Assembly: GCA_945921635.1 (NCBI GenBank)
Contig: CAMEKZ010000003.1
Location: 1-38,683 of the forward strand
Reading direction: 5' to 3'
Length of the DNA: 38,683 nucleotides
Source: an uncultured Clostridia bacterium
GTDB lineage: Bacteria; Bacillota; Clostridia; Oscillospirales; Ruminococcaceae
The notes beneath the pieces were generated by a model. That model was not told the origin of the DNA, did not search any database, and saw nothing but the letters and a program-made list of their open reading frames with translations. Below are positions 3,073 through 6,739 of this stretch, piece by piece. Positions within the stretch are counted from its first letter, which is position 1. Each line of letters opens with the position of its first letter. Both the position numbers and the translations under genes were made by a program.

Positions 3073-3163
3073 CTTAAAAACATTTTATTTTGTTATCTAT
3101 ATAATAGATATACAGCGGCGCGGATTTCCGCTCCGCACAGAGCATCTGCTCTGTATTTACTGT

Positions 3164-3260
3164 ACAGAGTAGGATAATGCGCGTAAAGTGCCCGAGGGAC
3201 GGGGAGTTGTCCTCGGGACGAACACCACACGGTGGCGGTGCATTGTCCGCATCTCGCTGT
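3164..3260 (+). promoter_or_regulatory. Tetrahydrofolate (THF) riboswitch aptamer
   Basis: The stretch carries the conserved pieces of the folT-type THF aptamer in order: AGTAGGATAATGCGCGT, AAGTG, a stem GCCCGAGGGAC.../GTCCTCGGG with GGGGAG, ACGAA, CGGTGCATT and CCGCATCTCGCTGT. The ends ACAG and CTGT close stem P1, and AATGC pairs with GCATT. It precedes folT, the classical target of this class. Upstream, CTCTGT (3149-3154) can pair either with ACAGAG at 3137-3142 or with ACAGAG at 3164-3169, which is the 5' edge of the aptamer. A lone TATAAT at 3100-3105 may be the -10 of its promoter; I see no good -35. Confidence 0.85.
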
Positions 3261-3309
3261 TGCATAAAAAGAGATAACGCCATATTTATCCCGAGTTATG
3301 CGATTGCGT

Positions 3310-3410
3310 AATACTATTTATTTCTAACTTAAAAAAGCTCCATAGAGCTTTTTTAAGAGTTCTGCCTACGGCAGAACCGATGGGACTTTGTCCTATCGAG
3401 AAATAGTATT
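3310..3410. repeat. Cloverleaf palindrome 1 (outer stem around three hairpins)
   Basis: Outer stem AATACTATTT (3310-3319) with AAATAGTATT (3401-3410). Inside are three hairpins: CTTAAAAAAGCTC/GAGCTTTTTTAAG (3328-3357, 13 bp, loop CATA), GTTCTGCC/GGCAGAAC (3359-3377, loop TAC) and CGATGGGAC/GTCCTATCG (3378-3398, loop TTT, one G-T pair). It lies between the THF aptamer and folT. Confidence 0.85.
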
Positions 3411-3415
3411 GTACA

Positions 3416-3493
3416 TCATTTCAGCCGCCTGCGGCGGCATATTCGGCTTTGCCGAATCCTTAAAAAGGTTAGCACCTTTTTAAGATGAAATGA
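3416..3493. repeat. Cloverleaf palindrome 2 (outer stem around three hairpins)
   Basis: Outer stem TCATTTCA (3416-3423) with TGAAATGA (3486-3493). Inside are GCCGCC/GGCGGC (3424-3438, loop TGC), ATTCGGC/GCCGAAT (3441-3457, loop TTT) and CTTAAAAAGG/CCTTTTTAAG (3459-3484). The last 3' arm, CCTTTTTAA at 3475-3483, can also pair along nine bases (two G-T) with TTAAGGAGG at 3512-3520, the ribosome binding site of folT. Confidence 0.85.
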
Positions 3494-3525
3494 GTATAAA
3501 TCATCGTAGATTTAAGGAGGTAAAT

Positions 3526-4158
3526 ATGGCATTTTTTCTTAATTTCAAAAAATCGTTTGAGGAGCTGAAGTCGGTACGCTGTCTTACGGTGACGGCTCTG
3601 CTTATCGGCGTGTCCATCGCGCTGAAATTTTTGCTTATTCAGCCGTCGGAGACGCTGAAAATAAGCTTTTCGTTTGTGGGGCTTGCCGCTATAGGTATGC
3701 TCTACGGTCCGACAGTTGCGGGTCTTGCGGGAATAGTCACCGATGTGCTCGGCTTTTTAGTAAAGCCAACCGGCGCGTTTTCACCGATATTCACGGTGGT
3801 GGAGCTTACGGGCGGCATAATATACGGAATATTCCTGTATAAGCTGAACCCCGCAAAGCTCGACTTTTCAAGCGGCTCGGCATTTTTGTCGGGACTTAAA
3901 ACAAACAGCTTACAGGTGCTGAGGATAGTGGGCGCAAAATTCACGATAAACCTTGTCTGCAACGTGTTTATGAACACTGCGGCTATGGTTATCATGGGCT
4001 ATTTTGCACCCGAGGTATTCTGGGTAAAGATATGGGAGCGCATAATCAAGAACGCGGTTATGCTGCCTATCGAGGTATTCATCCTACTGCTTGTCCTCTA
4101 CCCTGTTATGATAGCCTACCGCGCAGCGTTCAGACACACGCGCAGTATCGCGAAATAG
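3526..4158 (+). CDS. folT: Folate ECF transporter S component FolT
   Basis: Membrane substrate-binding subunit of an energy-coupling factor transporter, predicted to capture folate and work with shared EcfA/A'/T subunits not seen here. About 210 residues with five to six hydrophobic segments. The pattern ISFSFVGLAAIGMLYGP...AGLAGIVTDVLGFLVKPTG...FSPIFTVVELTGGIIYG is typical of the FolT-type S family. Start ATG 3526 sits six bases behind a strong AAGGAGG; an in-frame ATG 36 bases upstream falls inside cloverleaf 2 and has no ribosome binding site. The THF riboswitch upstream supports folate as substrate. Two cloverleaf palindromes separate the aptamer from the start codon. proC follows after 24 bases, probably co-transcribed. 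Confidence 0.88.
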   Translation: MAFFLNFKKSFEELKSVRCLTVTALLIGVSIALKFLLIQPSETLKISFSFVGLAAIGMLYGPTVAGLAGIVTDVLGFLVKPTGAFSPIFTVVELTGGIIYGIFLYKLNPAKLDFSSGSAFLSGLKTNSLQVLRIVGAKFTINLVCNVFMNTAAMVIMGYFAPEVFWVKIWERIIKNAVMLPIEVFILLLVLYPVMIAYRAAFRHTRSIAK

Positions 4159-4182
4159 ACTGACTGTAGAAAGGTTTTTACT

Positions 4183-4977
4183 ATGACCAGACTTGGCTTT
4201 TTAGGCGCGGGAAATATGGGAAGCGCCATCATGAAGGGTATCAGCGGCGCAGACATCGCCGAAATATACGCATACGACAAGGACGGCGGCAAGCTTGCGG
4301 CGCTGTCGGACATCGGGATTAAGCCGTGCGAAAGCGAAAACGAGCTCGTCCGTACCTGCGAGTATATCCTGCTTGCGGTAAAGCCGCAGGTTTTACCCGC
4401 GGTGCTTGACACCGTTGCAAAGGACATAACCGCGGATAAAATCATTATATCAATCTGCGCGGGCATCTCCGAGGACTTTATCCGCAGCAGGACTAACCCC
4501 GCTGCAAAGGTTATCCTTGTTATGCCTAACACCCCTATGATGCTGGGTCTCGGCGCGAGCGCGATTTCAAAGACCGACAACGTAAGCGAGACTGAATTTG
4601 CCTTTGCAAAGTCGGTTATCGAGAGCTGCGGCATAGCGCAGGAGATACCTATAGACAAGATGAAGGAGATAATCGCGGTAAACGGCAGCTCCCCCGCCTT
4701 TATCTATCTCTTTGCAAAGGGATTTATCGACTATGCGGAGTCAGTAGGTATTGACGCTGACGCGGCGCTTAGACTGTTCGCGCAGTCGCTTATCGGCTCG
4801 GCAAAGATGCTGACCGATTCGGGTATGGCGGTAGCCGAGCTTATAAAGCAGGTATCAAGCCCCGGCGGCACTACGATAGCGGGTCTTGACAGGCTCTATG
4901 CCGGAAAGCTCACCGAGGTTGTCGAGGACTGCTGTAAGGCTTGTACAAACAGAGCGTATGAGCTTGCCGCTAAGTAA
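4183..4977 (+). CDS. proC: Pyrroline-5-carboxylate reductase
   Basis: Last step of proline synthesis: NAD(P)H-dependent reduction of 1-pyrroline-5-carboxylate to proline in the cytoplasm. The N-terminal Rossmann loop is GAGNMG (residues 8-13). Then come AVKPQ, the ICAGI strand, VMPNTP, and in the helical dimerisation half NGSSPAF and SSPGGTT, which form the substrate site. The 264 residues match the family. AAAGG lies nine bases before the ATG. It follows folT by 24 bases and is closed by a good terminator at 5005-5043, so folT-proC looks like one transcript. I see no functional link between folate uptake and proline beyond this arrangement. Confidence 0.96.
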   Translation: MTRLGFLGAGNMGSAIMKGISGADIAEIYAYDKDGGKLAALSDIGIKPCESENELVRTCEYILLAVKPQVLPAVLDTVAKDITADKIIISICAGISEDFIRSRTNPAAKVILVMPNTPMMLGLGASAISKTDNVSETEFAFAKSVIESCGIAQEIPIDKMKEIIAVNGSSPAFIYLFAKGFIDYAESVGIDADAALRLFAQSLIGSAKMLTDSGMAVAELIKQVSSPGGTTIAGLDRLYAGKLTEVVEDCCKACTNRAYELAAK

Positions 4978-5004
4978 TTATTTGGAATAAAAACACTATT
5001 TGCA

Positions 5005-5043
5005 ATCCGTACCGGGCAGAAACGCTCCGGCACGGATTTTTTT
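5005..5043 (+). terminator. Rho-independent terminator after proC
   Basis: ATCCGT-A-CCGG pairs with CCGG-C-ACGGAT around a GCAGAAACGCT loop, followed by a run of seven T. Confidence 0.9.
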
Positions 5044-5061
5044 ATTTATTTGTCTGTAGGC

Positions 5062-5090
5062 TTGACATTTGCGGCTTAAAATGGTACAAT
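5062..5090 (+). promoter_or_regulatory. Consensus sigma-A promoter for the small lipoprotein
   Basis: TTGACA at 5062-5067, 17-bp spacer, TACAAT at 5085-5090. The start codon is about 50 bases downstream. Confidence 0.88.
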
Positions 5091-5140
5091 ATTCCTCACA
5101 GCGTCATGCGGCGCAAATAAAATGAAAAGGAATTATTATT

Positions 5141-5593
5141 ATGAGAAACATGAAGAAAATATTCGTGCTGTTTTTGGCTTTAATCTGCCTTTCGGTTGCC
5201 GCGTGTACGGTAAACACGAGTATGTCATACACCTACAATGTAGAAACCGGTGACGCGATTACCGTAAAGCTGAACACCGCGGACGGCTACAGCATAACCT
5301 CCGAGCTTCCGTTTACCGTTACAAAGGGCGGGGAGACTGTCGGACAGGGTTATTTTATCACCGAGGAGACATATCAGACATACGTCAGCTCGCTTTCCGG
5401 CATGGAGGGCGCAAAAGTAATCGGCACGGGCGAAAGGGCGGATATAGAGTATATTTTCTGGTGCTATAACGACACCGAGTATAATTACGCCGTGCTTGTA
5501 AAGGGTTCAAAGACGGGCGCGGTAGTGGGAAACAATATCTCGCAGGCGTCGGCTGAGGAGTGTATGGGAAGGCTGACGTTCAGTAAGGAATAA
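5141..5593 (+). CDS. Small lipoprotein of unknown function
   Basis: 150-residue protein with a lipoprotein signal peptide: MRNMKK, a hydrophobic core, then the lipobox VAAC with the lipidated Cys at residue 22. The mature part is about 128 residues, rich in Thr, Gly, Tyr and acidic residues, and probably mostly beta strand. I recognise no domain. AAAGGA is ten bases before ATG 5141; ATG 5150 (MKKIF) is an alternative with nearly the same signal. It is monocistronic, with its own consensus promoter (5062-5090) and terminator (5608-5641), so it is probably well expressed. Expected to be anchored on the outer face of the membrane. Confidence 0.8.
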   Translation: MRNMKKIFVLFLALICLSVAACTVNTSMSYTYNVETGDAITVKLNTADGYSITSELPFTVTKGGETVGQGYFITEETYQTYVSSLSGMEGAKVIGTGERADIEYIFWCYNDTEYNYAVLVKGSKTGAVVGNNISQASAEECMGRLTFSKE

Positions 5594-5607
5594 GCGTAAA
5601 ATGAAAT

Positions 5608-5641
5608 ACCGCCGGCGGCTTTTGGCTGTCGGCGGTTTTTG
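5608..5641 (+). terminator. Terminator between the lipoprotein gene and spoIIR
   Basis: ACCGCCG pairs with CGGCGGT around a GC-rich loop, followed by TTTTTGTGTT. It ends the plus-strand lipoprotein gene. On the other strand the hairpin is followed by a looser T-rich stretch, so it may also help stop spoIIR. Confidence 0.85.
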
Positions 5642-5653
5642 TGTTAGGTTTTC

Positions 5654-6409
5654 TTAAATCATCGCTCCGATAACCGACATACCCGCGTAGACGCTGATTT
5701 GTGCCGGTGCGGGGCTGTCCTCTGCCGCCGAAGCGGTGCTTTCCTGCTCCGGATTTTCGGTGCTTTCGTTGCTTTCGTTATTCGCGGCGTTCTCGCTGCT
5801 CTTGCTTTCATTCGTGTCACCGCCGCCGAAAAGGCTGTTCAGCAGTTCAAACAGCGCAAACTTTACCTCTATATCCGCGCTGTTTTCGATATTCTTGCTC
5901 TGCTCCTCGGTGAAAAACTCCCCCGCGGCGGGCAGACAGAGCGGCGGGAACATCACGCACCACCAGTTTTTCCCCTCCGCTTCGCCGATAAGAAAGCGAA
6001 CGGCGGTATAGTTCCCCGCGGGGAGGGTGTAATTCTCATACCGGCGCGTGGTAAAATAAGTATCTGCTATCTCGCACTCAACCGTGTAGTCATGGCCTTG
6101 TGATATAATAAACTTCTGTGCCTTTTCCTGCATCTCGGCTTTGTGCTCTTCTGCCGCTTCTATAGCTTCGTCAAGGTTTCCGCACCCGCCGAACACCTCG
6201 CCAAACTCGGTCAGCATATAATCCCTGAGCCTGTATTTCAGCGCCTGATCCTCCTCGCTGTCAGAGTTTGCGAGGATATGAAGGCGTAAAACCTCGTCGG
6301 GGATATGCTCGCAGTCCTCGGCAAACGCGGAAAAGCCGCTGAATATGATGGCGGCTACCGCGCCGATTATCATAGCTATGTTAGTGATATTATGCTTAAA
6401 CCCTGTCAT
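5654..6409 (-). CDS. spoIIR: Stage II sporulation protein R
   Basis: In known sporulators SpoIIR is made in the forespore, secreted into the intermembrane space, and triggers SpoIIGA to process pro-sigma-E. This protein has a signal peptide (residues 1-30, ending SAFA-ED), then the family core: IPDEVLRLHILANSDSEEDQ, ...LKYRLRDYML, a pattern of YTLPAGNYTAVRFLIGEAEGKNWWC and MFPPLC. After about residue 185 comes a 65-residue Ser/Glu/Asn/Ala-rich tail that is probably disordered and not part of the usual core. GAAAGGA lies eight bases before the ATG. I could not pick out a sigma-F promoter; the upstream gap is filled by cloverleaf palindromes. Its presence says the organism descends from, and probably is, a spore former. 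Confidence 0.92.
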   Translation of the reverse strand: MTGFKHNITNIAMIIGAVAAIIFSGFSAFAEDCEHIPDEVLRLHILANSDSEEDQALKYRLRDYMLTEFGEVFGGCGNLDEAIEAAEEHKAEMQEKAQKFIISQGHDYTVECEIADTYFTTRRYENYTLPAGNYTAVRFLIGEAEGKNWWCVMFPPLCLPAAGEFFTEEQSKNIENSADIEVKFALFELLNSLFGGGDTNESKSSENAANNESNESTENPEQESTASAAEDSPAPAQISVYAGMSVIGAMI

Positions 6410-6461
6410 AATTACAATCCTTTCGTGTCACATCGTGATGTCTGTAAGGTAATTAATGTCT

Positions 6462-6588
6462 GCTCATCAACTTCCGATAGGCTTTATAATAATAAAAAAA
6501 GCCTATCGGAAGTTGCTAAAGTGCGAGGATTTTCATAAATATTCAAGAAATCCTTGCACTTTAGTTCGTCCCTTTGGACGAAATGAGC
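6462..6588. repeat. Cloverleaf palindrome 3 (outer stem around three hairpins)
   Basis: Outer stem GCTCAT (6462-6467) with ATGAGC (6583-6588). Inside: a 17-bp perfect hairpin (6469-6485 with 6498-6514, arm beginning AACTTCCGATAGGC), a second 17-bp hairpin with one G-T pair (6516-6532 with 6548-6564, arm beginning CTAAAGTGC), and TTCGTCC/GGACGAA (6565-6582, loop CTTT). Confidence 0.85.
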
Positions 6589-6599
6589 TTGACATCGAG

Positions 6600-6710
6600 T
6601 AGTGTGTGCGGTGCAAAAGCGCACACAGTGTGATTTTGTGCCAACTCAAAGCCTGCTTTTCGGGCTTTGAGTGAATAACTGTCCTGCGGACAGTTATTCA
6701 GTACACACTA
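6600..6710. repeat. Cloverleaf palindrome 4 (outer stem around three hairpins)
   Basis: Outer stem TAGTGTGT (6600-6607) with ACACACTA (6703-6710). Inside: GGTGCAAAA/TTTTGTGCC (6610-6642, two G-T pairs, with CACA/TGTG nested), ACTCAAAGCC/GGCTTTGAGT (6644-6672) and GAATAACTGTCC/GGACAGTTATTC (6673-6699, loop TGC). It lies 29 bases past the end of nadE and could also act as its transcription stop. Confidence 0.85.
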
Positions 6711-6739
6711 ATTATTGACAGGGTTTCAGGTATTATACG

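Follow-up and report, generated by a model that had tools for sequence, protein, structure and literature searches.

Miniature inverted-repeat transposable elements (MITEs) of prokaryotes are known to form stable stem-loops in transcripts (PMC10969869), and the BOX, RUP and SPRITE elements of Streptococcus pneumoniae are named in the same paper. Here we describe two pairs of adjacent cloverleaf structures in a contig of an uncultured Clostridia bacterium (CAMEKZ010000003.1; the whole stretch of 38,683 nt that was analysed is called the window, and all coordinates refer to it). Each pair is very probably one short, non-coding, non-autonomous, MITE-like mobile element; we call the two F1 and F2, and a third family with the same fold F3. 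BOX, RUP and SPRITE are likewise intergenic and structured, are modular or mobilised in trans, and can lie in transcribed regions; we know of no double cloverleaf among them. The ends of PATEs and related miniature elements of the IS200/IS605 type also lie in secondary structure, and these elements insert with polarity at a preferred target; the ends of F2, in contrast, are inverted, and its target duplications are true ones that vary between copies. With prokaryotic MITEs (PMC10969869) the elements have in common that they are short, non-coding and dispersed, with AT-rich targets, direct repeats and stable stem-loops and, in F1 and F2, inverted terminal repeats. They differ in that no long hairpin runs from end to end, each end instead closing its own three-hairpin cloverleaf; the terminal repeats are imperfect in F2 and missing from F3, and no parental element was found at DDE_Tnp_1 loci or in the other fetched loci. 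The usual definition of a miniature mobile element rests on its ends, and such elements often have one long hairpin, whereas the plan here is an elaborate two-by-three arrangement. This plan is common to three unrelated families within one rumen-bacterial genus, at least one of which keeps it while its stems change. Neither the open-access literature nor Rfam yielded a description of a double three-hairpin cloverleaf or of unrelated families that have it, and no relevant paper on cloverleaf MITEs, or on MITEs in ruminococci, was found in the open-access literature.

Two cloverleaf pairs and their insertion sites

The original prediction, made from the letters of the window, held that four intergenic elements (E1 to E4) each consist of one outer stem enclosing exactly three hairpins. 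RNAfold predicts this form for all four, and the coordinates given at the time were off by a few bases at most. On the plus strand, E1 (3310-3410) has an outer stem of 10 bp (AATACTATTT/AAATAGTATT) and hairpin stems of 13, 8 and 9 bp; E2 (3416-3493) has an outer stem of 8 bp (TCATTTC/GAAATGA) and hairpin stems of 6, 7 and 11 bp; E3 (6462-6588) has an outer stem of 6 bp and hairpin stems of 18, 18 and 7 bp; and E4 (6600-6710), whose final two bases are part of the right target duplication of F2, has an outer stem of 8 bp (TAGTGTGT/ACACACTA) and hairpin stems of 14, 12 and 12 bp. The outer stem of E3 extends with a bulge to 6456-6595 on the same strand (ATGTC-t-GCTCAT / ATGAGC-tt-GACAT). In an alignment of 45 full F2 copies (A1) it is consensus helix 1, with 99.2% of cells paired, and consensus helices 6-9 correspond to E4. 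A structural scan that ignores sequence, admitting only a perfect outer stem with an interior that folds solely into near-perfect hairpins, returned E1-E4 as its top-ranked and most stable hits among 835 kb of sequence drawn partly from this genome and partly from two relatives. Strong cloverleaves are rare in this genome, a further 400 kb of which contained none that is comparable. (A looser scan with RNAfold returned hundreds of ordinary multiloops and was hence not used.) When a strict filter was applied to a separate 783-kb sample from three genomes, six three-hairpin elements passed in the real sequence, whereas shuffled sequence gave none; five of the six belong to F2 or F3. A larger, F2-enriched sample gave only three strong three-hairpin elements that were not recognised as F1-F3, and these three are visibly variants of F2. 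Relative to dinucleotide shuffles, the folding energies correspond to z-scores of -11.5 for the F1 pair and -21.3 for the F2 pair. The four cloverleaves are not due to chance and lie far beyond expectation. The view that they are not ordinary terminators was upheld, as was, within Rfam, the view that no named element of this form is known: no Rfam family matches, the search having given no match above the gathering score inside the elements.

A search of 71 genomes of the genus shows each pair to be a single dispersed repeat, and the pair is therefore treated as the unit. The adjacency noted in the original prediction was thus real, but each pair represents a single insertion and its members are not independent. 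Nor do the four cloverleaves form one family, as had been proposed; they make up two elements, each a double cloverleaf and each from a family unrelated to the other; F1 has relatives in other genomes, and F2 has further copies both in this genome and in relatives. The CTTAAAAA hairpin that had been noted as shared between stems is common to E1 and E2, that is, it lies within one element, F1, and it was found nowhere else in this genome.

F2 (6456-6708, plus strand, 253 bp, comprising E3 and E4) lies in the 5' leader of the host gene spoIIR (5654-6409, minus strand; PF09551, 1.1e-44) and has the 6-bp target duplication TAATTA on both sides (6450-6455 and 6709-6714). This leader was compared with those of 14 relatives, and in three of them (genomes G032, G001 and G053) it contains one TAATTA (CAATAATTAC) and no F2. 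Three more near-full copies are present in this genome (G000; 88-92% identity); G053 has two (81-84%), and other species have many, with identities of about 70%. Some rumen relatives have 40-50 copies. The left end of F2 was counted about 50 times in G030, with a further 44 in G048, often at contig ends, where repeats that interrupt assembly are expected. The named records that contain F2 are metagenome-assembled genomes of uncultured rumen Ruminococcus, Ruminiclostridium and Clostridia. In a 398-genome sample of the wider family, F2-like sequence was detected in 10 genomes from 6 genera, often with one cloverleaf and not the other, so that each half can be joined to a different partner; a search of viral contigs with one exact 20-mer gave no copies. 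An exact 6-bp duplication flanks 28 of the 45 full-length copies, compared with a mean of 7.5 and a maximum of 17 in 10,000 permutations of the right flanks, and with TAATTA sites excluded 18 of 34 copies match (4.9 when permuted). The duplications vary (TAATTA, TATTTA, TTATTA, TACTTA and GAATTA), which favours staggered cutting; the target is TATAATTA-like, with a duplication of 6-7 bp. The ends in the family consensus are imperfect inverted repeats (left, ATGTCTGCTCA; right, on the other strand, ATGTGTCCTCA) that match at 9 of 11 positions. Deletion derivatives of F2, 39-154 bp long and missing whole hairpins, were observed at loci L183, L197, L199 and L207; the three longer ones of these retain matching 6-bp flanks.

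F1 (3312-3496, plus strand, 185 bp, comprising E1 and E2) sits in the leader of a folT-like gene between two copies of the 3-bp target duplication TAA (3309-3311 and 3497-3499), so that the arrangement reads TAA-element-TAA. The orthologous folT leaders of G032, G001, G050 and G051 lack it, and the F1-free leader of G032 (GCGTAAGC) has a single TAA. About 12 relatives of F1, most covering both cloverleaves, were found in the sister-species genome G062 (73-81% identity) and one in G003, which represents another sister species. TAA flanks both sides in seven of the eight F1 copies examined; taken by itself this duplication, being short and of little variety, would be weak evidence, and the empty site adds support. 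The terminal inverted repeats are short, with TACTA at both ends. The same ends are found in several other elements of the genus (83-196 bp) with 3-bp TAA or TTA duplications, and this distribution suggests that one mobiliser may serve several families with TACTAA ends. Short elements (83-159 bp) with differing interiors, F1-type TACTAA ends and TAA or TTA duplications are located at L214, L220, L222, L228-L232, L234-L236 and L242. At L219, L105 and L108, widely spaced F1-type ends that pair up and have duplications were considered as the boundaries of a transposon and rejected, as ordinary genes lie between separate insertions.

Both F1 and F2 are thus dispersed and multicopy, carry target duplications, have short, imperfect terminal inverted repeats and are matched by empty sites. 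Neither contains an open reading frame (ORF) of at least 80 amino acids; the folT ORF overlaps F1 from 3490 only. The comparison of empty and filled orthologous sites that had been suggested gave a single target in the empty relatives and a duplication at the filled sites, and with extra copies elsewhere the elements are neither unique nor fixed in all relatives. At the level of sequence comparison, these data show insertion, dispersal and target duplication for F1 and F2 alike.

Fold conservation and a third family

The consensus fold of F2 was obtained unsupervised and without the model of the original prediction from 45 copies, which are related and were gathered partly via a conserved 20-mer at the junction. 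It consists of two cloverleaves with three hairpins each, and 43 of its 89 pairs have two-sided compensation. Paired cells amount to 97.0%, compared with 87.2% after within-pair shuffling and at most 43% for slid partners, and the covariation score is 0.305 as opposed to 0.125 for shuffled data. The left outer stem is nearly invariant, and in hairpins 1, 4 and 5 both arms have been rewritten; as judged from the alignment, the ends of F2 keep their sequence and the hairpins keep their shape. The earlier proposal that shape is kept while sequence changes therefore holds for the hairpin stems, which compensate strongly, but not for the ends and outer stems, which are highly conserved in sequence within a family, a pattern that their recognition during mobilisation would predict. 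For F1, the consensus of eight copies likewise consists of two cloverleaves, and 7 of its 67 pairs are compensated. Compensatory change argues strongly for maintenance of the fold in F2 and, weaker in count, in F1.

The sequence-blind scan also returned a cloverleaf in G032 (L096:7134-7210) that defines family F3, of about 155 bp, which is present in G032, in G001 and twice in this genome. Most full F3 units fold singly into two three-hairpin cloverleaves, and no meaningful sequence similarity was found among F1, F2 and F3. From its sequences F3 is best described as a repeat, both dispersed and in tandem, that has this fold but lacks the inverted repeats and varied duplications of a MITE; it may move by a different mechanism. 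By predicted folding, at least three families unrelated in sequence have the double-cloverleaf plan in this one genus. The common plan might be explained by selection for self-contained folding, by folded single-stranded DNA taking part in movement or replication, or by template switching that corrects hairpin arms. The question thereby becomes testable: the fold may be needed for movement, may permit harmless residence in leaders, or may be a product of hairpin-DNA mutation. It is also conceivable, although we consider it improbable, that a shared mobilising or replicating machinery recognises the double three-hairpin cloverleaf as folded single-stranded DNA or RNA and that unrelated sequences have converged on it; if true, these would be a structure-defined class of mobile elements. 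In G001, some F3 units are arrayed head to tail, recurring about every 162 bp (L378, L385 and L387), so F3 multiplies in tandem as well.

Alternative explanations

The position of F1 and F2 in 5' leaders, their very stable folds and their compensatory changes would also be expected of conserved structured leader RNAs, whether cis-regulators or small RNAs of folT and spoIIR that act through RNA structure. However, the same leaders are empty in relatives, the elements lie beside many other genes with flanking duplications, their wobble pairs have no significant strand bias, and no Rfam family covers them. This explanation is highly unlikely, as the empty sites and the dispersal all but refute it, although co-option at single loci is possible. 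We regard as only slightly plausible the proposal that the elements target active promoters, inserting at the -10 box, which would place a cloverleaf at the start of the RNA and thereby stabilise the message. The flanks of F2 and F3 do read TATAAT(TA) directly before the element, many with a TTGACA-like -35 box at the right spacing, and 37 of 50 F2 copies and 12 of 13 F3 copies point into a gene leader. Yet a -35 box with at least five of six matches accompanies 35% of ordinary intergenic TATAATWA sites and 21% of element sites, and gene orientation is similar (70% at ordinary TATAATWA sites, 75% at elements). The promoter association of F2 follows from its TATAATTA-like target, and the target sequence alone suffices to explain it. 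An origin from IS200/IS605-type or other single-strand transposons (PATE-like), with folded single-stranded DNA ends, a fixed adjacent target and no true duplication, is doubtful. It is in keeping with the strong secondary structures at both ends, with the polarity of F2 insertion relative to its target, and with F3, in which terminal inverted repeats are absent and each end carries a nearly invariant ATTATA. For F1 and F2 it appears unlikely on sequence grounds, since the ends of both are inversely repeated and the F2 duplications vary, with a two-sided match far above that of permuted flanks, contrary to the expectation of no target duplication. A possible, if not favoured, alternative accepts mobility and takes the perfect pairing to be a functionless mutational by-product, in which template switching or whole-hairpin exchange rewrites both arms. 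Block-wise hairpin variants between copies that are nearly identical elsewhere (such as L172:2962 and L343:4661) and the different partners of left and right cloverleaves in other genera are consistent with it, but it leaves the same two-by-three plan of three unrelated families unexplained.

Several observations weigh against our interpretation of the pairs as MITE-like elements with a maintained fold. The evidence for F1 comes from eight nearly full copies. F3 has no terminal inverted repeats, its ends differ, and its nearly invariant ATTATA shows no concerted variation between the two sides. Eight DDE_Tnp_1 loci from 12 genomes had no matching ends, other transposase families not having been searched, and the fetched loci contained neither a long pair of F2 ends enclosing a transposase ORF nor an autonomous element. 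The predicted accessibility of the Shine-Dalgarno (SD) sequence in the spoIIR leader is no better with F2 than with shuffled inserts. Selection on an RNA strand gained no support: the wobble asymmetry is 111 to 60 in cells but 23 to 15 in columns (23/38, p = 0.26), a strand bias that is not significant, and its direction is opposite to the usual transcript direction. As far as these counts indicate, RNA-level selection is unproven, and of the original suggestion of selection on, or generation through, secondary structure, the RNA-level form is not supported.

If the pairs are MITE-like elements, a trans-acting transposase would bind the conserved ends, which double as outer arms of the cloverleaves, and make a staggered cut in an AT-rich target (TAA for F1, TATAATTA-like for F2). 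The element would insert at the cut, with a duplication of 6-7 bp in the case of F2. Once in a leader it would fold on itself, such that flanking signals, for example the two strands of the folT anti-SD/SD hairpin, could still meet, and this self-contained folding would let leader insertions survive.

The folT leader and other structured sequences

Upstream of F1 lies a host feature, a tetrahydrofolate (THF) riboswitch aptamer (3163-3261, plus strand; RF01831, 93 bits in the Rfam search), which is conserved upstream of folT in relatives. The riboswitch is intact and adjoins F1; it is a host regulatory RNA into whose platform F1 was inserted, and not part of the element. The gene downstream (3490-4158, plus strand) encodes a folT-like substrate-binding component of an energy-coupling factor (ECF) transporter (PF12822, 2.9e-12), with folate as the probable substrate because of the THF riboswitch upstream. 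Position 3490 is the start of the longest ORF, and the likely start is the ATG at 3526. On the plus strand, the anti-SD strand of the expression platform (3283-3291, TATTTATCC) is predicted to pair with the folT SD region (3516-3526, GGAGGTAAATA), and F1 occupies the loop between these two strands of a translational platform. The predicted pairing measure is 0.997 with F1 and 0.998 with F1 removed, compared with 0.882 +/- 0.228 for shuffled inserts, 5% of which do as well. The anti-SD/SD pairing is thus predicted to survive the insertion. Insulation by the element is plausible at the folT site and, in general, unproven in these folding models. The folT leader can be viewed as a natural experiment, in which 185 bp were inserted into the loop of a riboswitch platform without predicted breakage.

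Two further structured sequences were encountered. A strong three-hairpin element outside F1-F3 (L423:7112-7213, in G033) contains ATGTTCCACATGGAACAT and is possibly a partition-like site. A 15-bp hairpin (CAGCTTGTCGAAAAA-loop-TTTTTCGACAAGCTG) is present in near-identical form at two places in this genome, 12047-12080 of the window and L066:4620-4655, and represents another dispersed hairpin repeat.

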